Source: Actinomycetes bacterium (GTDB lineage Bacteria > Actinomycetota > Coriobacteriia > Anaerosomatales > Anaerosomataceae). From it: a stretch of DNA of 43,537 nucleotides. The notes under the pieces were generated by a model that was not told the DNA's origin, ran no database searches, and was given only the letters and a program-made list of their open reading frames with translations. Positions within the stretch are counted from its first letter, which is position 1, and each line of letters starts with the position of its first letter. The stretch is taken from NCBI GenBank assembly GCA_021373175.1, contig JAJFTE010000018.1, positions 1 through 43,537 on the forward strand. The letters run 5' to 3'. Below are positions 50-13,411 of the stretch, in pieces. Both the position numbers and the translations under genes were made by a program.

Positions 50-592
50 CTACTCCTTCGGTGCTTCGGCCTCGTCGGCCTTCTTGGCGGCGGGCTTGCG
101 AGCCGCGGGCTTCTTGGCAACAGGCTTGTCTTCGGCGGCAGCCGCAGCCTTGGGGGCCGCAGGCTTCTTGGCGGCCGGCTTGGCGGCCGGCTTCTTGGCG
201 GCAGCGGGCTTCTCAGCAGCTGCGACCTCGGTCGCGGGAGCCTCTACGGCCTTCTCGGCCTTCTTGGGAGCGGCCTTCTTGGCGCCGGTGAGCGACACCT
301 CGGTGATCAGCAGCGCGGTCTGCGGCTGACGATGACCCTTGAGGCGCTTGTAACCCTTGCGCTTCTTGAACTTGAAGACGATCTGCTTCTCGCCCAGGAA
401 GTGTTCCACGACCATTGCGGTCACAAGTGCCGTGGAGGCAGCATCGCCGTACACGACCGTGTCACCGTCGGCAACGAAGATCGCGGGCAGCGTGACGGAC
501 TCACCAACGGGCGCGTCGATCTTCTCGACAACGACCACGGCGTCCTTCTCAACGAGAAGCTGCTTGCCGCCGGTTTTCACGATTGCGTACAT
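50..592 (-). CDS. rplU: 50S ribosomal protein L21 with a long Ala/Lys/Pro-rich C-terminal tail
   Basis: Residues 1-103 are a complete L21 (starting MYAIVKTGGKQ, ending near LLITEVSLTG), which binds 23S rRNA in the large subunit. The chosen ATG matches the family N-terminus; the open frame continues 17 codons upstream, but those residues are not L21-like. CTGGAG lies about 10 bases before the start. Residues 104-180 are a low-complexity tail of Ala, Lys and Pro with repeated KKPAA/AKKPA units, resembling histone-H1-like or mycobacterial HupB tails. Usual L21 length is about 103 residues, so the tail nearly doubles the protein. Its job is unknown; extra RNA contacts are a guess. The gene is followed at once by rpmA and has its own promoter upstream. 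Confidence 0.96.
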   Translation of the reverse strand: MYAIVKTGGKQLLVEKDAVVVVEKIDAPVGESVTLPAIFVADGDTVVYGDAASTALVTAMVVEHFLGEKQIVFKFKKRKGYKRLKGHRQPQTALLITEVSLTGAKKAAPKKAEKAVEAPATEVAAAEKPAAAKKPAAKPAAKKPAAPKAAAAAEDKPVAKKPAARKPAAKKADEAEAPKE

Positions 593-633
593 GGATGTGT
601 ACTCCAGTCTTAGGGATACAGACGCGAGGAAAC

Positions 634-662
634 ATGTTAACAAACGCCCTGGTTAAGGTCAA
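634..662 (-). promoter_or_regulatory. Sigma-70-type promoter of rplU-rpmA
   Basis: On the minus strand a TTGACC -35 hexamer (657-662) and a TAACAT -10 hexamer (634-639) are separated by exactly 17 bases. This is close to the housekeeping consensus. Transcription would begin near 627, giving a leader of about 35 bases before rplU. The promoter lies just inside the ribosomal side of the accessory block and would let L21/L27 be expressed independently of rng. Assigned by pattern only. Confidence 0.7.
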
Positions 663-818: not shown

Positions 819-827
819 TGATGCCGC

Positions 828-895
828 TCGTGACCGCGGAGATGCGGTCGTTCACATCGTATGCGCGAGACGAGAGCGTCATGGTCTCCGAGATG
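828..895 (-). pseudogene. Remnant of an RHS/YD-repeat gene
   Basis: These 68 bases closely match about 6001-6069 inside the large RHS gene of this window, in the same orientation. Translated on the minus strand they give ISETMTLSSRAYDVNDRIS; the intact gene has ISETMALSSRTHDVNDRLS at the equivalent place. The similarity stops abruptly at 895/896, one base from the stop codon of the next gene, and fades towards the twin palindromes. There is no start and no downstream tip. It looks like what is left of a second, displaced RHS cassette after deletion, or of a recombination product of the main gene. Confidence 0.75.
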
Positions 896-896
896 C

Positions 897-1208: not shown

Positions 1209-1432
1209 CCTCGCGGCTAACCTCGATCTTTCACGAACCCGTTCCGGTCGGTCTCGGAATCCTGGAACCGGCCTCCTGCCACGATATCGCATCCGTCTGA
1301 GCGTCGCGGTGGTCGCCGTGCGGACCTCGCGAGCCCGGACGGGTCTTTCCGGGCCGTTTCCGCTCGTTCTGGGGCGCGATCCGGCGACCTTGCGGTGATC
1401 CGTATGCTCGGTGCTTGAGTGCAGGGGCTCTC

Positions 1433-2808
1433 TCAGCCCGGGGGCAACGCCCTGAGCCGCTGGAACGCGGTGAGAAGCACCTCGGCCCAGGGCCAGGAGC
1501 GCGGCAGGCGCAGCCGGACGCCCCGGGCGTGGGTCACGATCCTGCCAGCGACATGGAAGAGGCGGTACCTCAGACGCTTTGGCTCGGCGGTGGAAAGCGG
1601 GGTGCCTGAGAACAGCAGCATCCTCGCCCACGCCACCAGATCGACACCCGTGAGCACGAGCTCGAGCCACGCCGCGTTCATCGCGAAGAGGCGGAACGGC
1701 AGGTTGCGAAGCCGGACGCCTTGGCGCATCTGATCGAGTCCTCGATCGCCGCGCGGGAGCGGTGCACAGCCTCGAGCCGCGCGATACGGGTACCCATCTG
1801 GTTCGTGAGCATGACCTGGAAGCGGTGCCCGTCGATGTCTGTGAAGGAGAGCTGCGCTCCGGGGTGCGGGCGCTCACGACGGCAGATCGCACGTGTGCCG
1901 GCAGGCCAGGTCGACAGATCGATATCGAGTTCGGCCACCCATGCGCCGTCTCGCGAGTCACCCTCGCTGTCGAGCGCGGGCGTCCAGGCGTCCTCGGGCA
2001 GCTTGAGGATCGCGTCGCGCACCCGCCCGGACAGGTCACATCCCACCGAGAAGGAGAGTCCGCGATCGACGACCGCGGAAAGGAAGGCGTGTGTGGCCCC
2101 GGCCGAGTCGCATCTCACGAGCGTGCCTGGATCGACGGCGGACTCCGGCAGCTGAGCGAGCGCGCGGTCGAGCACCTCGATGTGGTCGGCGGCCGTGTTG
2201 GCTCCGGCGTTTCCCGGGCGCAGGATGCCGGCGAGCGCCTCTCCCGTCGTGGCCTCGAAGCACAGCAGCGGATGGAAGCCGAAGCCCCGCTTGTAGGTGC
2301 CGGCCGCGCCCTCCTTCTCGGAGTGCGCGGTCAGAAGCGTGGCGTCGATGTCGAGTATCACGCGGGAGGAGGGCGTGTCGGCGAGTTCCCACACACGGGC
2401 ACGGGCGGAGGCGCGAGCCGTGCGAAGGCGCGAGAGCATCTCCGCGTCGAGACGCTCGATGCACCGGTAGGCGGTAGCGTCGGAGGCGACCGCTCCGAAC
2501 AGCGCTCCCTGATCCCGGAGCGCTCCGGGATCGGTGAGGCAGTCCCCGCCGTCGGCGAGCATGACCGAGAGGTCCCGGACGATGCGGCCCGGCTCGTGAC
2601 GGACGGCCCGGGAGTGGACGCAGAGCGCACCGGCGAGACCGGCGGTCAGGCCGATCGCGTCGGACAGCCCGGTGAGCAGGACGGTGCCGGCACGAGACGT
2701 CAGACCGTCCATGTCGCAGGTGACTTCAAAGCGGGAGGCTGGCGTGGTAGCGTTCACCAAGAACGGTGATCCTTTCTCGCGGGACTTCGGGCGTATCGCG
2801 ACTCCCAT
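1433..2808 (-). pseudogene. IS1380-family transposase, broken by a frameshift
   Basis: The 5' part (1678-2808) encodes 376 residues with IS1380-type landmarks: ILDIDATLL near 151-159, HPLLCF, RPGNAGANTAADHI, VRCDSAGATH (Asp 234) and a C-terminal EAVHRSRAAIEDSIR block carrying the likely catalytic Glu. Just after IEDSIRCAK the frame changes. The rest of the protein (starting about LRNLPFRLFAMN, then WLELVLTGVDLVAW) continues in another frame to the stop at 1433. Restoring one base near 1709-1712, so that GGCTTCGC reads GGCCTTCGC, would rejoin the halves. The total would then be about 458 codons, the usual family length. As it stands the enzyme is probably dead, unless a programmed frameshift is used. 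Confidence 0.85.
1433..2808 (-). mobile_element. IS1380-type insertion sequence (coding part; ends not resolved)
   Basis: The transposase pseudogene marks an insertion sequence of the IS1380 family. I compared 1300-1432 with the reverse complement of 2809-2870 and found no convincing terminal inverted repeat or target duplication, so only the coding part is delimited. The flanks hold a small membrane-protein gene (ending 2841) and a HEAT-like gene (beginning 1208). The non-coding stretch 1209-1432 shows only a short GC-rich hairpin and no gene. The element lies within the accessory block between rng and rplU. Confidence 0.6.
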
Positions 2809-2840
2809 TATCCCAGCTCAGAGGTTCACCGTCGCCTGTT

Positions 2841-3077
2841 TCAGGCGTGAATCTCAGTCGCTTCGTGAAATATCGAGGCTAAGTACGACCGGGAGGGATT
2901 CTGCCGCGCAAACGGCAAGTCATCACGCAGGAGTGTCTCGATCGCTTCGGAGACCGAGTGCGGTCCAGTCGCGATCCATGCCCCACGGGCCACGAGGGCT
3001 ACCAGGATGAGCGCCACTACCAGCACGAAGGTCGTCCAAGGCTGAAGCCTGCGGTTGTGTGTCGCAATGGTCTTCAT
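2841..3077 (-). CDS. Small single-pass membrane protein
   Basis: A 78-residue protein starting MKTIATHNRRLQPW, with one strongly hydrophobic segment (about residues 17-33, FVLVVALILVALVARG) and a soluble, mixed-charge C-terminal part of about 45 residues. The positive N-terminus predicts the soluble part outside the cytoplasm. The frame is open further upstream, but that sequence is Arg/Trp/Cys-rich and looks non-coding. It is the last of four small membrane-protein genes following the RHS gene and lies next to the IS, so its C-terminus could be altered by the insertion. Function unknown. Confidence 0.5.
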   Translation of the reverse strand: MKTIATHNRRLQPWTTFVLVVALILVALVARGAWIATGPHSVSEAIETLLRDDLPFARQNPSRSYLASIFHEATEIHA

Positions 3078-3150: not shown

Positions 3151-3435
3151 TCACGGTGCCATCTTGCCAGGAATCCGACCGCTTGCCATGCGTGCTGCGG
3201 CGCCCGCCAGCGCAGTGGCAACCACCCCCGCAACCAGTGTCGGCACAATGGCCCTGCTCCCATACACAAGTGCTCCCCAACCCACGCAAGCCAGCGCCTG
3301 CACCGCAACAGCGCCAGTCCATACGCGCAATGTCCGAACTGCGGCCCGACTCAGTGCCGCGTACGCAACGACAGACACGAACGTTCCCGTCCAGGCCAGC
3401 GCGAAGGCTACAAAGGCGCCCTCAAGTCCTGTCAC
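3151..3435 (-). CDS. Small integral membrane protein (about three TM segments)
   Basis: A 94-residue, highly hydrophobic protein with predicted membrane segments at about 4-28, 36-60 and 62-83 and a short basic C-terminus (ASGRIPGKMAP). Its ATG overlaps the TGA of the preceding 115-residue membrane protein (ATGA), so the two are translationally coupled and probably act together. No family was recognised. Its position three genes behind the RHS tip fits a membrane immunity or accessory protein. That is inference only. Confidence 0.62.
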   Translation of the reverse strand: MTGLEGAFVAFALAWTGTFVSVVAYAALSRAAVRTLRVWTGAVAVQALACVGWGALVYGSRAIVPTLVAGVVATALAGAAARMASGRIPGKMAP

Positions 3436-3779
3436 GCCTGCACCTGCTTCCGCTCCCAGGCAGAACGGGTCAATGCCGCCTGCATGGGTCCTGCCGCACT
3501 TGTCAGCACCACTATCCCGATGAGAACCGGAAGGCCGTGAAGCACCCCCCGGCCATTACCACTCACCAAGAGCAGAGTCAGAAACGGAAGCGTGGCGGCC
3601 GGACCCATCAGCAGGAGAGCACCCTTCGGCACTCCGAGCAACAACGGACGCGCCCGCCGATCGCCGGCTTTCTCCGAGAGCGACAGCGCGCCGCCAATCC
3701 CACCCACGATGAGCGGCCACAACGATATGCCGAACAACATCCCAAGACTCTCTGGATCAAGCCCGAAGGCCAACGTCAT
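3432..3779 (-). CDS. Integral membrane protein of unknown function
   Basis: A 115-residue protein starting MTLAFGLDPESLGMLF. The ATG is preferred over a GTG three codons upstream because GAGGTGG sits 5-6 bases before it. Three hydrophobic segments are predicted (about 14-33, 50-71, 80-100), with a charged loop KAGDRRARP between the first two and a basic tail (SAWERKQVQA). It is coupled by ATGA to the 94-residue membrane protein downstream. The upstream gap 3780-3971 ends in a short hydrophobic frame whose TGA touches this gene's ribosome binding site, possibly the tail of an eroded gene. Function unknown. Confidence 0.62.
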   Translation of the reverse strand: MTLAFGLDPESLGMLFGISLWPLIVGGIGGALSLSEKAGDRRARPLLLGVPKGALLLMGPAATLPFLTLLLVSGNGRGVLHGLPVLIGIVVLTSAAGPMQAALTRSAWERKQVQA

Positions 3780-3971
3780 TTGAACCACCTCACTCAGAGC
3801 ACGAACTGAAGACCGAGCATGGAGTCCCCACGGTCATCCCGGCGATCACGGTTGCGATTACTCCGCAGACCACCGCTTGTTCATCGCTCGCGAGATTGCC
3901 GCCTCCAAATCACCCTGACTAGCCCCTCCCGCTCAATCCTTACGCCCCAGTATCGCGCTCGTTCGCTGCCT

Positions 3972-4472
3972 TTAGGGACGATCTCCGCCGACCGCGGCAC
4001 GTGCACCCCTGATACAGGACACCAGCACCCCCGACATGACCAGCCCCAGGGTGCCTGTCACGAGCGCTATAAGGACGCCAGGAAACAACGGTAGCACGCG
4101 CGCGACACCCCCAAGAGTCATCGTTGACCAAGAAGGCGATATCGCCACGAATGTTGAGGACAGGACCCCGAGCAGGGTCATCACAACCCAGATGAGCAGA
4201 CTCATCATGGCGCCCACTGCAGTCATGCGGCTCACGCGCAGGCGGAGCACCAGCATGAAGGTGATCGCCAGTGCCGCATGGAGCACGAGAGCGCCATCGG
4301 GTCCCACACCGTGCGACAGCCCGAACGGCAGCGCCACCCACACGAAGAGCGGTATCCATTCTGGAAGCCCCCGTGCGTTGCCGGTGAGCTGCAGGGCCCA
4401 CGTGATGCCCAGGGCGTTGAGCGCAAGCCACGGTACGAGTAGCGCAATCACGTAGTCTTTACGCTGAGGCAT
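3972..4472 (-). CDS. Integral membrane protein directly behind the RHS toxin tip (candidate immunity protein)
   Basis: A 166-residue protein with four or five hydrophobic segments (about 7-29, 38-54, 61-79, 85-110 and 122-155) and a short basic C-terminus. The start is well supported: AGGAG lies about 7 bases before the ATG, and the gene begins 8 bases after the RHS stop codon, so the ribosome binding site is laid over the end of the RHS gene. In polymorphic-toxin loci the gene in exactly this place usually encodes the immunity protein for the C-terminal toxin. A membrane immunity protein would fit a toxin acting on the membrane. No family was recognised, and the immunity role is inferred from position. 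Confidence 0.68.
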   Translation of the reverse strand: MPQRKDYVIALLVPWLALNALGITWALQLTGNARGLPEWIPLFVWVALPFGLSHGVGPDGALVLHAALAITFMLVLRLRVSRMTAVGAMMSLLIWVVMTLLGVLSSTFVAISPSWSTMTLGGVARVLPLFPGVLIALVTGTLGLVMSGVLVSCIRGARAAVGGDRP

Positions 4473-4480
4473 TGTGTCTC

Positions 4481-7400
4481 CTAGAAGTCCTGCAGCGGTC
4501 TCAACACCTGCGGAAGAGCATGGTACCAGAAGTGGTAGTCGGACGCCTGCGCCCAGCTCGTTACCTGTACGTTGGTGTATCGTCCACTCACGTAACCCTC
4601 CCTGAGCGTCCCAGGGCTCTCCGGTAGCGGGTCCACCGTCAGCTGATCCACGTACGACTCATTGCAGATGACCTGGGCGATCTCATCATCTCCGCCGTAG
4701 AGGGCAGCGTATATCATGGACTGGGCGAAATCCCCACGCCTATGCGCCTCGTAGACTTCACGCTCCTCAAGCGACAGCTTCGCGACCTTGCCCCATCCAA
4801 TCGCCTCACTTGCGCTCCCTGCGATCGGCGCTGCAGCCCCGCGCACAACCCCGTCCACCGTAACGACGGTTAGAGCCGTATCCTTCCCCCAAGGCCACAG
4901 GCTCTTGGCTGTTTGCCACGCTCGTCTCCAAAACCCTGGCCAGCGTACCGCCTGGATGCCGCGCAGGTGTCTGTTCCACTCCGCGGCTTCCTTCGTGCCC
5001 GGCTTGTGGATGCCCTTGCCAGGAGGATCGGCACCCGACGGATCATCGAGTCCCACCGGGTCCCCCAGGCAGTACACGAACGCGTTCAGACTCAGCGGGT
5101 CTCCGGCACTCGGCGGTGCGGGGTCCGGCGACAAGAAACGGTACGTAGCCGGATCGTAGTATCTCGCAGGCAAGTAGAAGAGTCCTGTCTCGGCATCAGC
5201 GTAGTACGCCCGGTAGCGAAGCGGGTTGCGGGTGGCGATCTCCTCACCTGTCGCGGCAGTGCAGCGTCCGTACGGGTCGTACTCGTAGGTCGCTGCCGCG
5301 ATGCTGCCGTCCTCATCCGTCATCGCAACCACGCTGCCGAGCGCGTCCGTGTGGTACGCGAACGTCTCGGAGGGCTGTCCGGACCGTGTGCGGGTGACCG
5401 AGAGCGGTGTGCGGTCAGGACCCCACAGGTACGTGTAGCGGGTGCCGTCGGAGTCGTACTCGGCGGCGAGCAGGTCGCCTGTGTAGACCGACTTGGTCCA
5501 CACCGTAGGCACGCCGGGGCGCTCGATCGTCTTGAGTTCCCGCATCCCCGACATACCGTACGCGTAGGTGATGGTTGCATCCTCAGAGACGACCTGCGTG
5601 AGGTGGCCGGTCGGGTCCCACGTGTAGGTGGTCACACCCGAAGGCGTCACACGCGATGTCCTGCGCCCGTAGAAGTCGTTCGTGTACGTGGCGGCCACCG
5701 AGCCGGTCGAGCCCGTGAGGCGGTTCTCGGCGTCATAGGCGAAGCGTGTCGAGGCACCTGCGACCGTCGCGGTCGTGACGTTGCCCGCCGAGTCGAACGC
5801 GTACGTGGCACTCGATGCAGAGCCGCCCGTGCGGGTCCACACCGTCAGCCGGTCGAGGTCGTCGTAGGAAAACGTTTCGGCGAAGTCGACGACACCCGTC
5901 GAGTCCATCGAGTCGATACGGTCGCGGGTATCGTAGCCGAGCGTCGTGGTCAGCAGGTGCGAGAACATCCCCGGGTACGCGATGCCCGACGGTAGGCCGT
6001 TCGTGACCGAGGAGAGGCGGTCATTCACATCGTGCGTGCGCGAGGAGAGCGCCATGGTCTCCGAGATGCTCGACAGCGCACCACCCTGACCGAACGCGAT
6101 CTTCCACGCGCGTCCGCCGGAGGCGATCTTCGCGAGTTCGCCGGTCTTGGCGTACGTGTAGTCGGTGACATCGGTGGCTTCAGGCGTCTGGGGTGTGACC
6201 TTGAGCGGAAGGTCGGTGACATCGTATGTCACGTTCGTCTTGGTGCTCCCCGCGGGTCCCGTGGCGCGTCGCTCAAGGATCCGCCCGAGCGCGTCGTACG
6301 TCACTCCGGTGCTCCCGGTGATCGAGCCGGTGAGTGTCGTCGTCGCACGCGAGGCGATGTCGTAATCCGTCGTTGCCGTCGCGTACGGCATCCCCGCAGC
6401 GTCGTTGTACGTAAGGGTGCGCACCCGCGAGAGCGAGTCGTACGTCTGTGATTGCGCGACCACCGACGGCGTCGTGTCTTGCGCGGGAGCCATCACCTGC
6501 GAGGTCCGGCCGAGAGCATCGTACACGATGGCTGTACGAATCCCGGACGGCGACGTTGTGCCGCTTAGGCGCCCACGCGCGTCGTACGTGAGCACCGTCG
6601 TACGGTTGCCGGGAGCCTTTACCGATGACAACTTGCCAGCCGAGGTGTAGCTGAAGTCGGCTGTGATTCCGAGGCCGGACCCGGGCAGGCTCTCAACACG
6701 CGTGAGGCGGTCGAGTCCGTCGTACTGGCGCGCAGTCACCTGGATCGCGGACCCACCGCTGGGCGTCACCGACGCCGATATGAGACGCCCGCGGCCGTCG
6801 GAGACATTCGCTGACGACACGCCGGTCGATGATACTGCCGTTGTCTGGAAGGTGTGGGACGCCGAGTCGTAGGCGAAAGTGCCGGTGCCCCCCGCGGGCT
6901 CAAGTGCGACGGCGTCGAAGTAGCTCTTGCCACCGCCGGGCATCTGGTAGAGCCAGACGCGAACATATCGTGCGCTCGCCGGGATGGTCGCCTCAGCAGA
7001 GTAGCGCGTCCAGTCATGTGTGCCGCGCACGAGTGTCGGCGTGATACTCGTCTCCGCCGTCAGCTGCGTGCTCGAGTCTGCCGCGGTGTAGTAGCGCATG
7101 AGCACCTTCGCTCCGCCCACCGATCCCGCGGTCTTGATCGACACCCCGGCGCGATACCGCTCGCCGGGAGCAACGGCGGCAAATCCCGAGCAGAAGTAGC
7201 CATCGTCGCCGTCCGCAGTGTCATGTCTGATGAGGGCAGAGTACGCACCAGACACAGCCTCGTCACTCGAGAGTGTCTGTGAGGCATCAAAGGAGGTGGC
7301 CCTCAGGGTCCATGCCTCAGGTAGCTCGCCCGTCGTGAGCCTTTCGAAGGAGCCATTCTCGATGAACGAAAACGGTTGGGCCGAGTTCGCTAGCTCCAGG

Positions 7401-8416
7401 CGCACATTATCAAATGAAGCACCGCCCGTGTCGTTCGTGAAGCACTGCACTCGCACCTTCGCGGTATCAGTCGAAGGCCGGTAGCCAACCGCCATCCGCG
7501 CCAAATCCCCCGCCGCATCACTCACGGAAAGATACGGCACGGTGCGCGCGTAGGTCCCGTTCGCCTTGTACTCGAGGACACGGATGCTGCCGTTGCCACG
7601 GGCCCACGCCGACAGGCTGTAGACCTGACCGACCGTAACCGTCGTCAGATCCGATGTTGCGAATGCGTAGGAGAGTGACGCCGGCTTCCACAGCCGTAGC
7701 GTCCTCCCTCCGAGATACGGCTGCGTGGTGGTTGTCCACACGAGTCCGTCTGTGCTCTTGTCTCCATCCCAGCCATTGCCTGCCACAAGCGGACTCAGAT
7801 CGAAACAACCATTCTCCAGGATGCTGTAGGCGGTACTCCCGTCTCCGGCAGCACGAGCGGTGTTCCCCCATTCGTCGTAAGCGCCCTGGGAGACGGCGCC
7901 CCCCTCGGCCAGTGAGTCGGTCACAGCCACGGTGGAGTTCACGGGACGCCAGGCAGCGTCGTAGCGCACTGTCTGCACGTTGCCTGTCGCATCCACCGAT
8001 GACTCCACGTGGTCGTTGACGTACGAGGCGCTGGTCGTGCGGAGCACGCTTCCGCCCGCGGCTTGCTCGACGGTCACCAAGGCGTTGCCGCGACCGTCAC
8101 GCTCGGTCCGCACGATGCGGCCGAGCGCATCTGTCGTCTTCCACACCTGCCCATACTCGTCGTACGCGACGCTCGTGAGAGGACCTTGCCCGGACGCATC
8201 TTGCACCTTGACGCTGGTGGTCTGGTATCCGATCGCGGGATCGTACGTGATCACCCGTGTCGGCGCCGCAAGACCTCCTGCGGATGTTGTGACTGTGACC
8301 TTGTTGGTCTGGTAGGTGTAGACAGAGACCGTGGGAGTAGAATCGCCCACTTCGGTCACCGTGGAGACCCGGCCATAGGCGTCGTACGCGATGTTGAAAC
8401 CGATCCCCCCCCGCAT
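4481..8416 (-). CDS. RHS/YD-repeat protein, C-terminal part, with RHS core and variable tip
   Basis: This frame holds the C-terminal ~1,310 residues of the giant RHS protein. Many YD repeats are visible (YDAYGRVSTV, YDALGRTSQV, YDTRDRIDSM, YDAENRLTGS and others). They are interrupted near residues 200-530 by two lectin-like modules introduced by ENGCFDL and ENGSFERL. The RHS core end is classical: HTDALGSVVAMTD, then YYDPATYRFLSPDP and LNAFVYCLGDPVGLDDPSG. Behind it a 183-residue tip (about 4481-5032) has no recognised domain; it is rich in Trp, Tyr and His at the end. The RHS barrel is known to encapsulate such tips. An ATG at 8416 could begin this frame, but it sits exactly at the G8 tract that breaks the gene. 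Seven Gs would join it to the upstream frame and give one 2,431-residue protein. Confidence 0.88.
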   Translation of the reverse strand: MRGGIGFNIAYDAYGRVSTVTEVGDSTPTVSVYTYQTNKVTVTTSAGGLAAPTRVITYDPAIGYQTTSVKVQDASGQGPLTSVAYDEYGQVWKTTDALGRIVRTERDGRGNALVTVEQAAGGSVLRTTSASYVNDHVESSVDATGNVQTVRYDAAWRPVNSTVAVTDSLAEGGAVSQGAYDEWGNTARAAGDGSTAYSILENGCFDLSPLVAGNGWDGDKSTDGLVWTTTTQPYLGGRTLRLWKPASLSYAFATSDLTTVTVGQVYSLSAWARGNGSIRVLEYKANGTYARTVPYLSVSDAAGDLARMAVGYRPSTDTAKVRVQCFTNDTGGASFDNVRLELANSAQPFSFIENGSFERLTTGELPEAWTLRATSFDASQTLSSDEAVSGAYSALIRHDTADGDDGYFCSGFAAVAPGERYRAGVSIKTAGSVGGAKVLMRYYTAADSSTQLTAETSITPTLVRGTHDWTRYSAEATIPASARYVRVWLYQMPGGGKSYFDAVALEPAGGTGTFAYDSASHTFQTTAVSSTGVSSANVSDGRGRLISASVTPSGGSAIQVTARQYDGLDRLTRVESLPGSGLGITADFSYTSAGKLSSVKAPGNRTTVLTYDARGRLSGTTSPSGIRTAIVYDALGRTSQVMAPAQDTTPSVVAQSQTYDSLSRVRTLTYNDAAGMPYATATTDYDIASRATTTLTGSITGSTGVTYDALGRILERRATGPAGSTKTNVTYDVTDLPLKVTPQTPEATDVTDYTYAKTGELAKIASGGRAWKIAFGQGGALSSISETMALSSRTHDVNDRLSSVTNGLPSGIAYPGMFSHLLTTTLGYDTRDRIDSMDSTGVVDFAETFSYDDLDRLTVWTRTGGSASSATYAFDSAGNVTTATVAGASTRFAYDAENRLTGSTGSVAATYTNDFYGRRTSRVTPSGVTTYTWDPTGHLTQVVSEDATITYAYGMSGMRELKTIERPGVPTVWTKSVYTGDLLAAEYDSDGTRYTYLWGPDRTPLSVTRTRSGQPSETFAYHTDALGSVVAMTDEDGSIAAATYEYDPYGRCTAATGEEIATRNPLRYRAYYADAETGLFYLPARYYDPATYRFLSPDPAPPSAGDPLSLNAFVYCLGDPVGLDDPSGADPPGKGIHKPGTKEAAEWNRHLRGIQAVRWPGFWRRAWQTAKSLWPWGKDTALTVVTVDGVVRGAAAPIAGSASEAIGWGKVAKLSLEEREVYEAHRRGDFAQSMIYAALYGGDDEIAQVICNESYVDQLTVDPLPESPGTLREGYVSGRYTNVQVTSWAQASDYHFWYHALPQVLRPLQDF

Positions 8417-11400
8417 CTCGCGTTCCCGAGATGCGCCCGTTCCCGTCGTAGGTGTACGTAAGTACCGTGGTGTCGCTCGTTCCGTTCGACCGGATGAACC
8501 TCAGGTCGCTGCCGACACGAGCGACATCGACCACACCCACCGAGTAGGTCGATACTCCGCTCGATGACATTCCGCGCCAGTTGAGGTACTCGAGCTGCCC
8601 CGACGTGTTGCGAACCAGATCGACGCCACGTGTTGCCGTGTTCGACGCGCGGCCGGTGTTATCGGACACACCGGTGAGGCGCTGGGAAGCATCGCGCGTG
8701 ACGAAGACGGGGTTCCCGGACGGGTCGGCCGTAGCAGTGATTGCGCCGGTCGTCGTGTATGCGACTGCCCCGTCACCGAGCTTGAGCACCGGTGCCTCGA
8801 TCTCGCAAACGTGGAACCCATCGTTGCCAACGAGCGAGTTGCCAATAGCGACGATTCGCACGAAGCGTACGCGCCGTGGTGTGAACGTGTGCTTCATCCA
8901 CGATGCACCCGTAGTTGTATCAACCGCCGTGGCCCACGGCCCTGTCGCACCCTCGCTCGTCTGAACCCTGTACGTGTACTGTCTGGGCGTTACCCCGCTG
9001 GACTCCGCGTAGTCCCACAGGTGCAGATCGATCTCCGAGAGCAGCTCGGCCTTGTCCAACTCGTAGGTAAGCGTACTCGTGCCGTCGGCCTTCCAGTTGG
9101 TCTCGTCGTAGTTGTACTTGTCGCCTCCGAGCACCCCGTCGGTGCCCTCCCATACTTCGCCGAGCTTGGTCGAGATACCGTCCGCACCCTTGAGGGCATT
9201 CACCCGCGTGAAGCGTATGCCTGGCTCAAGGGGGTCTCTCGTGTAGAGTCCATCCCCCACCTGACGGAACGTACGCCCCGTCCCATCGGCATCGGTGAAC
9301 TGAAATCCGTGGGTCAGGAGTGATACGTCATCCCAGTAGGTGTATCCCTTGATGTTCTTCGCTTCTAGATGGACGGTCGCGTACGCCGCCTTAGCGGGTG
9401 CCACCGCCTCGAGTCCCAGCCGCCACCAGACTGCTGTGCTCGTCGGACGGAATCCTGGCGTCGTCGCGGACCCGCCTAGCAGCGTGCCCGCCGCGTCGTA
9501 GAAGTGAATCTTCATGAGCGCGCCGTACTCGGCCTGGGTCGTGTTCGGCGTCAGCAGATACGTCTTGACCCACGCCGAGAGACTCAGACGCTGCCCGGGA
9601 TACACCGGGGTGCCGGAGTATCCGCCGCTGTTGTTGCGCACGTATGCGCTGAAGTACCCGTTCGCGGGGTTCTGGCCCATCATCAGGTACTTCGAGCCGC
9701 CGTGGGGCGTCGTGCTTGTGACGACGGCGGTCACTAGATCGTTGTTCATCAGCCAGTCGATCGGGTTGTTCGAGCTGTTCGAGCTGTTCGCGCTCTCGAA
9801 ACCCGCGTTTGGTAGGATCTGTGCGGACGGGCTGACTGTCGGTGCGCCGAGTGTCCATCCCCGCCCGTAACCCTGTGAGTCAGCGGTGCCGGCAGAGTCG
9901 TATCGCAAGGTATAGCCAAGCGACCCACCAAGGCCTGTCCTCGCGAAGTCCGAGCGTGCACCGATGAGCCTGCCCGATGGGAGATCGACCGCAAGCCCTG
10001 CTCCGACCGCATCACTCGCTCGGATCGGTGAGTATCCCTGTCCATCGCTGGAACTGAGGAGCGACTTCCTGTCGAAGGGCTGCCAGTCCGTCCAGTTCGA
10101 CGCGGCATCCAAACCGTTCGCTTCGCACCATACCCGCATGCGTATCCAGTAGCGGTCTTGGGTCCATCCGCCAGCAGGCGCCGGGATGTCCATTACGGTG
10201 GCGGTAGTATCGATGTCAAGGGAGTCGAAGGCTAGCGTGTAGTTGGGGACTGAACTCGCCAGCTGCACGCGAGCCTTGCTCTGCTTGTTGCCGAGACGGT
10301 CGTCGTAGCGCCAGTGCGCGTGGATGGTTGTGGCCGCTGTCGAAACGGGTACCTCTGGCGACGGCGCGACGATCTCAACCTTCGGCTCGAGTGTGAACAC
10401 GACCTTGAGAACCGGGGCCGACGGCTCGCCCGCATACTGGTATGAACGGAACTTCGACCAATACGTGTTATCCACGGTCTCGTTCGCCGCGTAGATCCGG
10501 AACCCATAGTTTGGGTGCTCCCCAAGTGCGAACTGCCGCGTCGTACCCGTGACGTCCCACTCGGCCCAGGCTCCGTCCGAGACCGGAGCACTCGAAATAT
10601 CGGGCGTTATCCCAGGCTGGTTGTTGTACGTGATTCCGGTCTCGCTCCAGTCGCTCTCGACGCGACCCACCTTGAGCGTCGGTGTCGTGGCTGGATAGAA
10701 CAGGTGATAGCAGTACAGCCGAAGCTTCGCTGAGAGGATCGTGTAGCCGTTGTCCCAGAAGTTGCCGATAGCGGGCTTGATGTAGGTCCGGTTTAGACCC
10801 GCGTTCACCCCACCATAGTTGTAGCGACCGACTTTGAGCTCCGTGGAGAGACCGTAGTTCGTCGTCGGATATGCGCTCGTGACGAACGAGTCGTAGTTGT
10901 AGATGCTCTGTGACCAGAACGTGGTCGGGTCGATCCGCACCGGATAGACGCGCTCCGGATCAGAGAGCCACGCGTCATCGGCGACAACGTCGAGCCGCCA
11001 GTTCACACCGAGGCTGCGAAGCTCGTAGTGCACTGCATCCGAGTACGCGTGGTCACCGGCGGCGTTCTTTGAGGAATCCTCCATGAATGGCGGCACCATC
11101 GCGAAGCGGACTTCCCCGGTAGCAATCGAGGTGAAGGCGATCGAACCGGATGCCTCCAACGAGGGCGTGAAACCAGGGCAGTCCAGATCGAACGAGAATG
11201 TGCTCTTTCCCGTGTCGGAGCGAAGGACGATAGTCTCTTTGAGTCCCTGGGCGACAGACTCGTACACAAGATCCGTGCCGCCGAACGCGTGCTCATAACT
11301 CCTGGAGTTGCCCGTCATCGGCGTGGGGACCGATGTCTCCTCGTACGCCTCGTGCACCGGCGCCTCACCGAGACGTCCTTTGGGACGCAGCCGGATGGAG

Positions 11401-11777
11401 CCAAGGTCGTCCGAGATTGATACCGTCTGCTCTGCGACGGTCTCGGGGAGGAAGACCGCGAACCCGTTGCGTCTGTTCTTGTAGCCTCTGCCCTCGGAGG
11501 TCACCGTCTCCTCGAGCGAAGAGTCAATCTCATCGAAGATACCGGTCTCATTGTTGGCAAAGTGAATCGGCTCCAGATAGCTCTCGTATGTGAACGTGCC
11601 GTCGCGGTTGTCGTACGTCTTGGAGAATTGCGTCCGCTTGTCCACAAGCTCCCGGCGGGCGGGCGGCATCGGGGACGGCGATGCATACGCCGGAGCGACC
11701 TGGATCGTACTGAGCGTCAGCGCGAAGGACAGAACCAGTGAGAGAGCGCGAACAAAGATCCCCCGGGAGAAGCGCAT
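8097..11777 (-). CDS. RHS/YD-repeat protein, N-terminal part, with signal peptide and carbohydrate-binding-like modules
   Basis: The ATG at 11777 begins a clear signal peptide (MRFSRGIFVRALSLVLSFAL..., likely cut after AYA at residue 32), so the protein is exported. Visible modules are an N-terminal beta-rich domain (about 40-285); a DNRLRE-type domain (about 290-462, containing AYPTTNYGLSTELKVGRY); an Ig-like segment (465-590); an RHS-like start (LGGSLGYTLRYDS, about 617); a CBM-like lectin module (655-825, PNAGFES to WDDVSLL); a discoidin/F5-8C-like module (860-995); and the first YD repeats. True coding ends near 8405, at residue 1124. The last ~103 codons are out of frame and Arg-rich. 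The homology continues in the frame of 4481-8416. Large secreted RHS proteins with such modules are cell-surface or toxin-delivery proteins. Confidence 0.88.
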   Translation of the reverse strand: MRFSRGIFVRALSLVLSFALTLSTIQVAPAYASPSPMPPARRELVDKRTQFSKTYDNRDGTFTYESYLEPIHFANNETGIFDEIDSSLEETVTSEGRGYKNRRNGFAVFLPETVAEQTVSISDDLGSIRLRPKGRLGEAPVHEAYEETSVPTPMTGNSRSYEHAFGGTDLVYESVAQGLKETIVLRSDTGKSTFSFDLDCPGFTPSLEASGSIAFTSIATGEVRFAMVPPFMEDSSKNAAGDHAYSDAVHYELRSLGVNWRLDVVADDAWLSDPERVYPVRIDPTTFWSQSIYNYDSFVTSAYPTTNYGLSTELKVGRYNYGGVNAGLNRTYIKPAIGNFWDNGYTILSAKLRLYCYHLFYPATTPTLKVGRVESDWSETGITYNNQPGITPDISSAPVSDGAWAEWDVTGTTRQFALGEHPNYGFRIYAANETVDNTYWSKFRSYQYAGEPSAPVLKVVFTLEPKVEIVAPSPEVPVSTAATTIHAHWRYDDRLGNKQSKARVQLASSVPNYTLAFDSLDIDTTATVMDIPAPAGGWTQDRYWIRMRVWCEANGLDAASNWTDWQPFDRKSLLSSSDGQGYSPIRASDAVGAGLAVDLPSGRLIGARSDFARTGLGGSLGYTLRYDSAGTADSQGYGRGWTLGAPTVSPSAQILPNAGFESANSSNSSNNPIDWLMNNDLVTAVVTSTTPHGGSKYLMMGQNPANGYFSAYVRNNSGGYSGTPVYPGQRLSLSAWVKTYLLTPNTTQAEYGALMKIHFYDAAGTLLGGSATTPGFRPTSTAVWWRLGLEAVAPAKAAYATVHLEAKNIKGYTYWDDVSLLTHGFQFTDADGTGRTFRQVGDGLYTRDPLEPGIRFTRVNALKGADGISTKLGEVWEGTDGVLGGDKYNYDETNWKADGTSTLTYELDKAELLSEIDLHLWDYAESSGVTPRQYTYRVQTSEGATGPWATAVDTTTGASWMKHTFTPRRVRFVRIVAIGNSLVGNDGFHVCEIEAPVLKLGDGAVAYTTTGAITATADPSGNPVFVTRDASQRLTGVSDNTGRASNTATRGVDLVRNTSGQLEYLNWRGMSSSGVSTYSVGVVDVARVGSDLRFIRSNGTSDTTVLTYTYDGNGRISGTRDAGGDRFQHRVRRLWPGLHGDRSGRFYSHGLCLHLPDQQGHSHNIRRRSCGADTGDHVRSRDRIPDHQRQGARCVRARSSHERRVRRVWAGVEDDRCARPHRADRA
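8405..8412 (-). repeat. G8 homopolymer at the RHS frameshift
   Basis: Eight consecutive C on the plus strand, so G8 in the coding strand. With G8 the upstream frame reads RDAGGDRFQHRV, which is meaningless. With G7 it would read RDAGGIGFNIAYDAYGRV and join both halves of the RHS protein exactly. The break is therefore one extra G in a slippage-prone tract: phase variation, a fixed mutation or a sequencing error. Confidence 0.85.
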
Positions 11778-11778
11778 G

Positions 11779-11819
11779 CGAAGACCCCCCTCTTCGGCGG
11801 ACGCCCCCCGGGTGTCCGC
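11779..11819 (-). promoter_or_regulatory. Two hairpins in the RHS leader, one holding the ribosome binding site in its loop
   Basis: On the coding strand the last 42 bases before the RHS start form two adjacent stem-loops. The first has arms GCGGAC (11814-11819) and GTCCGC (11797-11802) around a G-rich loop. The second has arms CGAAGA (11791-11796) and TCTTCG (11779-11784) around a loop of six Gs. That G6 loop is the only Shine-Dalgarno-like sequence and sits 7 bases from the ATG. The fold could expose or mask the ribosome binding site. A regulatory role is inferred. Confidence 0.5.
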
Positions 11820-11932
11820 ACAGCAACAGCTACTCAACGCAGCAGAACAGAAATGGAGCGCCTCGCGCAAGGGATTATGGAAAGTTCGGAGCAACCTTAT
11901 GGACGCGCTGAAGGCTCGCTGGACCGCGGCTC

Positions 11933-13411
11933 CTACGTCCCCGCCACTCCCCCGCGTCCCTCGATGATCACCTTCACCTCAGTGGCCGCGCAGTCGGGGT
12001 CCGCCATCAGCGTTATCTGCTTGCCGGTCTCGGCCTTGAGGATGGGCACCGCGTTGTTGCCCGGAGCCGTGACGAGTGCATACGTCTCCGGATGCAAACC
12101 CAGCAGATACGCGGCGGAACGGCCGCTCAGCAGAATCTCGCGGATGCGTCGCTCGGCGGCGATCCGCCTCGTCGCGTCGGACAGCACGCGTCCTTCTCCG
12201 TGGCAGACGGGACAGGGCTCTGTGAGCACGCCGTAGAGCCCGTCGGTGACGTTCTTGCGGGTCATCTCCACCAGTCCGAGGCGCGAGATCTCCGAGGCGC
12301 GCGTCTTGGTCCGGTCGCGTTCGAGCGCCGAGGAGAGCCGCTTAGACACCTCGGTCCGGTGATTCGGGTTCTCCATGTCGATGAAGTCGATCACGATGAT
12401 CCCGCCGATGTCACGAAGCCGCAACTGCCGCACGGCCTCCTCGGCCGCTTCGAGATTGGTGCGCAAGATCGTGTCTTCGAGGTTCTTGCGCCCCACGTAC
12501 GATCCGGTGTTCACGTCCACAGCAGTGAGTGCCTCGGCCTTGTCGATCGTGAGGTGTCCGCCAGAAGGCAGCGGCACCTTGCGCAGGATCGCGGTCTCGA
12601 TCTGGGGCCGTAGCGAGAACGCCTCGAACAGTGGCGTGCGGTCCTTGTGCAACACCACGCGTTTCACCAGCTCCGGCGACGTCTTCTTCAGGAAGGAAAC
12701 GACTTTCTCGTGCAACCGTTTGTCATCGACGATGAGCCGCTTGTACGCTTCGCTGAACGCGTCGCGCACCATCCGGAGCGCGAGATCCATCTCGGTGTAG
12801 ACGACCTCCGGCGCGAGGGCCTCGTGCGCCTGATGCTGCACGCGACGCCATAGGCGCAGCAGGAACTCGAGGTCGTTCTCGAGGTCGCGCCGGCTCGCCC
12901 CGGCGGCGGCTGTCCGCACGATCACCCCGAGACGCTCGTCCACGAGCGGCGCGACGATGTCGTGCAGCCGGTCGCGCTCGTCGTCAGGAAGCTTCCGGGA
13001 TATGCCAACGAATGCCGAGAACGGCATGAGCACCAGGAACCGCCCGGGAAGCGTGATCTCGGTCGTGACCCGGGCGCCCTTGGTGCCCATTGCGTCCTTG
13101 AGGACCTGCACCATGATCTGCTGCCCCGGCTTAAGCAGCGATTGAATGTCGCGTCGCGGAACGTCGCTCACGCCCTCCGGCGCCACGATCTCGTCCACGT
13201 ACAGGAACCCGTTCTTGTCCAGTCCGATGTCCACGAACGCTGCCTGCATGCCCGGCAGCACATCGCGTACTTTGCCGAGGTAGACGTTGCCAACCACGCT
13301 CCGCTTCGGCCGTTCGATGTACAGCTCTACAAGCCGGCGATCCTCCAGGATCGCGACCCTCGTTTCATGCGCGTCGTGCGAGATCAGCATCTCGCGAACG
13401 ATGTCAGTCAC
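11933..13411 (-). CDS. rng: Ribonuclease E/G family endoribonuclease
   Basis: A 492-residue single-strand-specific endoribonuclease used in rRNA maturation and mRNA decay. Domains: an S1 RNA-binding segment (about 38-120, with GNVYLGKVRDVLPGMQAAFVDIG), the 5' sensor/RNase H-like region, and the DNase I-like catalytic part with DVNTG (Asp 299) and IDFIDM (Asp 342/345) placed as the Mg-binding aspartates of RNase E. The Zn-link is CPVCHG (Cys 400 and 403). There is no long degradosome tail, so it is RNase G-like in length. The start is GTG; an in-frame ATG seven codons on (MLISHDAHETRVAILED) is an alternative. It lies 16 bases behind the DUF2344 gene. The usual downstream partners rplU-rpmA are displaced by the accessory block. 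Confidence 0.95.
   Translation of the reverse strand: MTDIVREMLISHDAHETRVAILEDRRLVELYIERPKRSVVGNVYLGKVRDVLPGMQAAFVDIGLDKNGFLYVDEIVAPEGVSDVPRRDIQSLLKPGQQIMVQVLKDAMGTKGARVTTEITLPGRFLVLMPFSAFVGISRKLPDDERDRLHDIVAPLVDERLGVIVRTAAAGASRRDLENDLEFLLRLWRRVQHQAHEALAPEVVYTEMDLALRMVRDAFSEAYKRLIVDDKRLHEKVVSFLKKTSPELVKRVVLHKDRTPLFEAFSLRPQIETAILRKVPLPSGGHLTIDKAEALTAVDVNTGSYVGRKNLEDTILRTNLEAAEEAVRQLRLRDIGGIIVIDFIDMENPNHRTEVSKRLSSALERDRTKTRASEISRLGLVEMTRKNVTDGLYGVLTEPCPVCHGEGRVLSDATRRIAAERRIREILLSGRSAAYLLGLHPETYALVTAPGNNAVPILKAETGKQITLMADPDCAATEVKVIIEGRGGVAGT

Follow-up and report, generated by a model that had tools for sequence, protein, structure and literature searches.

The locus examined here raises the question of what a row of small genes for membrane proteins is doing directly behind the toxin-like end of an RHS gene. 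The row lies in a stretch of 43,537 nucleotides (positions 1 to 43,537 of contig JAJFTE010000018.1, hereafter the window) from an Actinomycetes bacterium of the family Anaerosomataceae. The first-pass annotation had read these genes as a succession of immunity genes and as the mark of a history of tip exchange. The features identified in the window are given in Table 1, together with one related cassette from another genome.

Table 1. Features of the RHS locus, ordered along the window, and the RHS cassette found before rplU in genome G030.
Feature	Coordinates	Strand	Basis or remark
rplU (ribosomal protein L21)	50..643	-	downstream border of insertion; PF00829 3.5e-29
RHS core remnant	823..896	-	86.5% identical over 74 nt to 6069-5996; blastn E 1e-21
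Probable 3' part of fourth gene, ~105 residues	897..1216	-	position right behind insertion sequence
IS1380-family insertion sequence	1221..2878	-	NF033539 4.2e-70; imperfect terminal inverted repeats
Fourth gene, 5' part, 65 codons, one hydrophobic segment	2883..3077	-	cut by insertion sequence
94-aa membrane protein, GTG start	3151..3435	-	overlaps preceding stop by GTGA
118-aa (GTG 3788) or 115-aa (ATG 3779) membrane protein	3432..3788	-	first of coupled pair
166-aa multi-pass membrane protein, putative cognate immunity protein	3972..4472	-	position, hydrophobicity, ribosome binding site AGGAGA
RHS tip, 183 residues after core, putative toxin	4481..5032	-	position after TIGR03696
RHS C-terminal part: YD repeats and RHS-associated core	4481..8416	-	TIGR03696 2.2e-19, YD repeats 1.7e-18
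Run of 8 C on plus strand (8 G on coding strand); RHS frame change	8405..8412	.	three-frame translation
RHS N-terminal part: DNRLRE/CBM96 domain, first YD repeats	8097..11894	-	ORF; CBM96 and DNRLRE_dom matches
rng (ribonuclease G)	11933..13411	-	upstream border of insertion; PF10150 5.3e-98
G030 RHS core, tip and 246-aa membrane ORF	L074 4035-6266 (G030:C26)		before rplU

The RHS gene and the genes behind it occupy approximately 11 kb of the minus strand, bounded by rng and rplU. rplU was located in 29 other genomes, and in 28 of them, including all four of the same genus, rng lies no more than 1.5 kb upstream of it, so that the RHS cassette of the window is an insertion. The sole exception is genome G030, a member of another family, where an RHS core, a tip and a membrane ORF stand before rplU on a contig that stops short of rng. 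Between that cassette and rplU is a short fragment which, from the look of its sequence, we take to be IS3-like. The rng-rplU junction has probably received RHS cassettes at least twice. In two further genomes, G006 (L136) and G016 (L139), the gap between rng and rplU measured approximately 600-670 nt, which is more than in most other relatives.

The RHS gene has the features of an RHS polymorphic toxin, with YD/RHS repeats that end in an RHS-associated core (TIGR03696, 69.7 bits against a cut-off of 32.5, ending at approximately 5033) and a unique tip behind it. The likely start is the ATG at 11777, and a Sec-type signal peptide was judged by eye from the translation. The reading frame is split at the run of eight G, leaving no single intact frame from signal peptide to tip, so that the toxin may be inactive, or the split may be an error of the assembly. 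The run itself is a candidate for phase variation or for assembly error.

The tip matched no toxin family in Pfam, NCBIfam, PHROGs or PADLOC, and one of its fragments weakly matched the end of the RHS core. No relatives were found in public genome contigs, plasmids and phages, the genome-contig scan requiring exact stretches of eight residues and therefore seeing close relatives only. Barring a weak match in genome G066 (E 0.008), where the stretch read placed it outside any RHS gene, the tip matched only itself and, with its first 45 residues, a tip in G002, a genome of the same genus. The linker of these two tips is 71% identical over 28 residues while the remainder differs, giving the same handle with a different head, and this lends support to the proposed history of tip exchange. 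No segment of the tip rose above the hydrophobicity threshold (peak 1.39), and a single-sequence fold was unusable, with a mean pLDDT of 32.3.

The ORF of the 166-aa protein begins with an ATG 8 bases past the RHS stop at 4481 on the same strand, and AGGAGA is found just upstream of it, in agreement with the spacing and the ideal ribosome binding site that had been described. Four hydrophobic segments were detected by the Kyte-Doolittle method, and the protein is predicted to be integral to the membrane. The single-sequence AlphaFold2 model was all-helical with approximately five long helices, at low confidence (mean pLDDT 60.7). There was no match above cut-off in Pfam, NCBIfam, PHROGs or PADLOC, and no relative in public viral contigs, genome contigs or plasmids, where the viral and genome-contig scans again depend on exact stretches of eight residues and only close relatives are visible. 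A search of 386 genomes of the class returned four, including the genome itself; the other three gave E values of 0.005-0.009 and two of them contained internal stops. The 166-aa protein is most likely the cognate immunity protein of the present tip.

The next two ORFs form a coupled pair. The first may be read from either of two start codons, and the ATG, which has GAGGTGG upstream, gives the 115 residues quoted in the first-pass annotation. It contains three hydrophobic segments and the 94-aa ORF contains two. The description of both as membrane proteins with overlapping ends was borne out, with the correction that the junction at 3435-3432 reads GTGA rather than ATGA. The chain behind the RHS gene is real, but the 192-bp gap between the 166-aa ORF and the 115-aa ORF means that it is not contiguous. 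Codon usage is atypical in both ORFs of the pair (scores of -0.057 and -0.089 per codon), and gene calling by codon usage called none of the chain genes. Codon usage was dropped as a gene test, as every membrane follower of other tips scores 0 or below. All 46 membrane ORFs found directly behind RHS tips were atypical (median -0.065; each no higher than 0), including one that is kept at 70% identity between two genomes, so that this measure does not discriminate here. The summed content of R, P, S and H was 0.19 and 0.14 in the frames of the pair, compared to 0.23-0.46 in eight non-chain ORFs of at least 60 aa between 2883 and 4480.

Neither the 118-aa nor the 94-aa protein had a match above cut-off in Pfam, NCBIfam, PHROGs or PADLOC, the few family matches listed being weak, such as that of the 118-aa protein to NCBIfam MhpT (E 0.048). 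Across the class, the 118-aa protein was matched in 10 of the 386 genomes, its own included, with all others at E 6e-4 or weaker. This search was made at a per-genome limit of 0.01, at which a few chance matches are expected over 386 genomes, and the weak matches of the 166- and 118-aa proteins were therefore not counted as homologues. Within the order, none of the three proteins had a confident homologue among the 61 or 69 genomes searched (61 for the 94-aa protein). The 115- and 94-aa proteins matched no first-position immunity-type gene elsewhere, an alignment of two-ORF chains from nine loci revealed no common family, and a PDB sequence search gave chance matches only. Homologues that are widespread without RHS genes and have a clear other function, which would speak against an immunity role, were thus not among the matches, as no confident homologue was found. 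The pair may be the leftover of an earlier tip, a more tentative assignment than that of the 166-aa protein to the present one.

A fourth gene starts at 3077, 73 bp past the 94-aa ORF. As first read, as an ORF of 78 aa, it had no match above cut-off in Pfam, NCBIfam, PHROGs or PADLOC. An IS1380-family element interrupts it; the transposase frame of this element is broken, TTAG stands on either side of it (2879-2882 and 1217-1220), and no second copy of it was found in the genome. The piece on the far side of the element is weakly HEAT-like (HEAT_2, E 0.059, under the curated cut-off), and from their positions the 5' and 3' pieces probably form one gene. Directly past its stop at 897, and just before rplU, lies the remnant of RHS core. 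RHS sequence is accordingly present on both sides of the chain, as displacement of a C-terminal module would be expected to leave it. Most simply, an earlier module would have occupied this site and lost its tip, with the genes next to it remaining behind. The remnant is the second observation that favours the suggested history of tip exchange. Between the 166-aa gene and the coupled pair no RHS remnant was present, so that the pair could instead supply extra parts of the same module as the 166-aa gene.

The genes behind RHS tips were examined across the order. RHS cores were found in 39 of 61 genomes, the present one included, with 113 matches in total. DNA was available behind 110 of these, and 93 tips passed the filters (tip of at least 90 residues, closed, with at least 400 bases behind it); for chains, the set comprised 90 tips with at least 1,200 bases behind. 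The follower was taken as the longest ORF starting near the stop of the tip, and was counted as small and multi-pass if it had 60-260 aa and at least two hydrophobic segments, with 241 long genes in 400 kb as controls. Such a follower was present behind 46 of the 93 RHS tips compared to 8 of the 241 control genes (Fisher p 2e-22, a value that overstates the strength because related genomes are not independent, although the contrast remains large). With identical tips removed the figure was 45 of 91. Chains of two or more small membrane ORFs stood behind 12 of the 90 tips against 1 of 229 control genes, and a further 34 of the 90 had one such ORF. Spurious nested ORFs of at least 80 aa had two or more hydrophobic segments in 19 of 826 cases, in 341 kb of long control genes.

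The followers were then compared between pairs of tips. A common downstream gene was detected in 14 of 35 pairs alike in their last 100 residues, in none of 44 pairs alike only in the first 60 residues, which form the linker, and in 5 of 4,199 otherwise unrelated pairs (all pairs of the 93 tips being considered). The 21 toxin-end pairs with no detectable common gene were mostly of weak similarity, with three strong ones (E 2e-20 or better), and four of the five dissimilar-tip pairs belonged to one group of related followers. As a class, downstream genes thus co-segregate with the tip's toxin end rather than with its linker. The immunity position proposed for the membrane ORFs is supported at the level of the class by this co-segregation and by the excess of membrane followers over controls; the immunity role of the individual ORFs in the window stays putative. 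An example is found on contig C78 of the same genome, where tip and follower are 62% and 70% identical, respectively, to a tip and follower of G002, the tip in question being the one whose linker resembles that of the present tip. A multi-pass follower stood behind 21 of the 30 tips that have a hydrophobic segment, compared to 24 of the 61 that have none (p 0.008).

Chains elsewhere in the order resemble the present one in layout. In G002, four small membrane ORFs follow the last tip of an array, the last two overlapping, and the fourth of these weakly matched the first ORF behind a tip of G013 (phmmer E 9e-7 in a small set; blastp E 0.001). Two ORFs with a 4-nt overlap come immediately after a tip on contig C70 of the genome that holds the window (G000), and likewise on C172 of G035, which indicates that a coupled pair can by itself make up a whole unit in first position; these pairs have no detectable sequence in common with the pair of the window, and the likeness is one of layout only. 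A large orphan-module array was observed in G006 (G006:C1:766000-785500, L050), with 11 RHS core matches in approximately 16 kb, each with a tip of its own and one or more ORFs downstream. In G043 (C67, L091) the two membrane ORFs behind a tip are alike (phmmer E 3e-4), as if one had been duplicated.

The locus is best explained, with reasonable but not high confidence, as a secreted RHS (WapA-like) polymorphic-toxin locus in which the 166-aa protein provides immunity to the tip and the remaining small genes are leftovers of displaced tips. An unlikely alternative is that the three membrane proteins, perhaps with the fourth gene, act as a single complex that serves the present tip in immunity or in an accessory role, and do not record tips now lost. 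All lie on the same strand, with neither an RHS remnant nor a terminator-like site on the minus strand between the chain genes, and the coupled pairs directly behind tips in G035 and G000 suggest that multi-gene membrane immunity may exist. Against such a complex stand the gap of 192 bp behind the 166-aa gene, the remnant of another RHS core past the last chain gene, and the predominance of single followers in the order (34 of 90 tips, compared to 12 with two or more).

It is less likely still that only the 166-aa gene confers immunity and that the membrane ORFs downstream are unrelated insertion cargo or decayed sequence. The lack of family matches, the atypical codon usage and the IS1380 copy within the fourth gene would be in keeping with cargo or decay, but chance hydrophobic ORFs of this size are rare among the nested ORFs of control genes, the R, P, S and H content of the pair falls below that of the non-chain ORFs, and the chain pattern recurs behind other tips. 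The membrane proteins could also be helpers in export, anchoring or processing of the RHS protein, an idea to which the SecF-like protein linked to WapA export in Streptococcus suis (as described in the accessible part of PMC12704120) gives a precedent. Helpers of this kind should follow the RHS shell, whereas in this order the downstream gene varies with the tip's toxin end and is never shared by tips alike in the linker alone, which makes this role very improbable.

Under the preferred reading of a secreted toxin locus with displaced leftovers, inserted between rng and rplU, the 166-aa protein would sit in the producer's own membrane and block an antibacterial tip there. A block at this site would be in keeping with action of the tip in, or through, the cytoplasmic membrane. 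Tip modules would have been displaced through recombination within the RHS core, leaving the 115/94-aa pair and the IS-cut fourth gene as putative immunity genes of earlier modules and the core remnant behind the chain as a scar. Membrane action is suggested by the multi-pass nature of the followers and by their greater frequency, in the order as a whole, behind tips that have a hydrophobic segment; as the present tip has no such segment and its fold failed, membrane action here is a guess. A broader possibility, less likely than not, is that the order has a large arsenal of membrane-acting RHS tips, each with its own unrelated multi-pass guard and some with coupled units of approximately 110 and 95 aa, and that the pair in the window is one such unit which has outlived its tip.

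When compared with known systems, the locus belongs to the RHS-CT/immunity modules with displaced leftovers, and is close to the immunity arrays of Vibrio and to polyimmunity loci. As in the Rhs-CT/RhsI systems covered by the available text of Poole et al. (2011; PMC3150448), a polymorphic tip stands behind a conserved RHS core with a small gene directly downstream, and further modules or remnants follow, with repeated core sequence at the border and insertion sequences. Displaced tips in those orphan-module arrays can retain a piece of the upstream gene before them. The window likewise contains extra immunity-type genes together with a remnant of a displaced RHS module; it differs from the arrays in that text in that the far module has no tip and has lost nearly all of its core, leaving small genes and 74 nt of core, and in being known from sequence alone.

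In Vibrio cholerae, according to the part of Kirchberger et al. (2017; PMC5361080) at hand, effectors have been replaced while old immunity genes were retained, which gives a similar row of immunity-type genes behind one effector. The orphans described there match immunity genes of effector pairs in other strains, whereas no such match was found here, and where that account has a T6SS cluster gene as effector, the window has an RHS protein that probably carries a signal peptide. The tandem, structurally unrelated small immunity-type genes also recall the heterogeneous polyimmunity loci of Zhang et al. (2012; PMC3482391), a survey whose accessible sections list HEAT repeats as an immunity domain. 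The membrane types Imm-CdiI and Imm17 have two helices in those sections, while all three intact genes of the window encode multi-pass proteins.

Parallels for action at the membrane come from CDI ionophore toxins, which in the available portion of PMC11630599 have hydrophobic, membrane-localised CdiI proteins, immunity proteins being very variable in sequence, and from Tse5, presented in the corresponding portion of PMC10684867 as an RHS pore-former acting on the membrane. The parallel is that of a membrane-acting tip, as these sources describe it; no clear bundle of hydrophobic helices is present in the tip of the window.

A bias towards multi-pass membrane followers in this order was not reported in the literature searched, most subscription papers lying outside it, and the same searched literature contained no study of RHS tip replacement in the lineage. 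The weight of multi-pass membrane followers in the order may therefore be new. RHS tip replacement in the lineage is illustrated concretely by this locus, and further cases may be sought at the rng-rplU junction, which carries an RHS cassette in two of the order's families. With half of the tips of the order followed by a small multi-pass membrane protein, the bias is lineage-wide, and if these followers are immunity proteins they would represent largely unstudied families of membrane immunity, each marking a likely membrane-acting tip.
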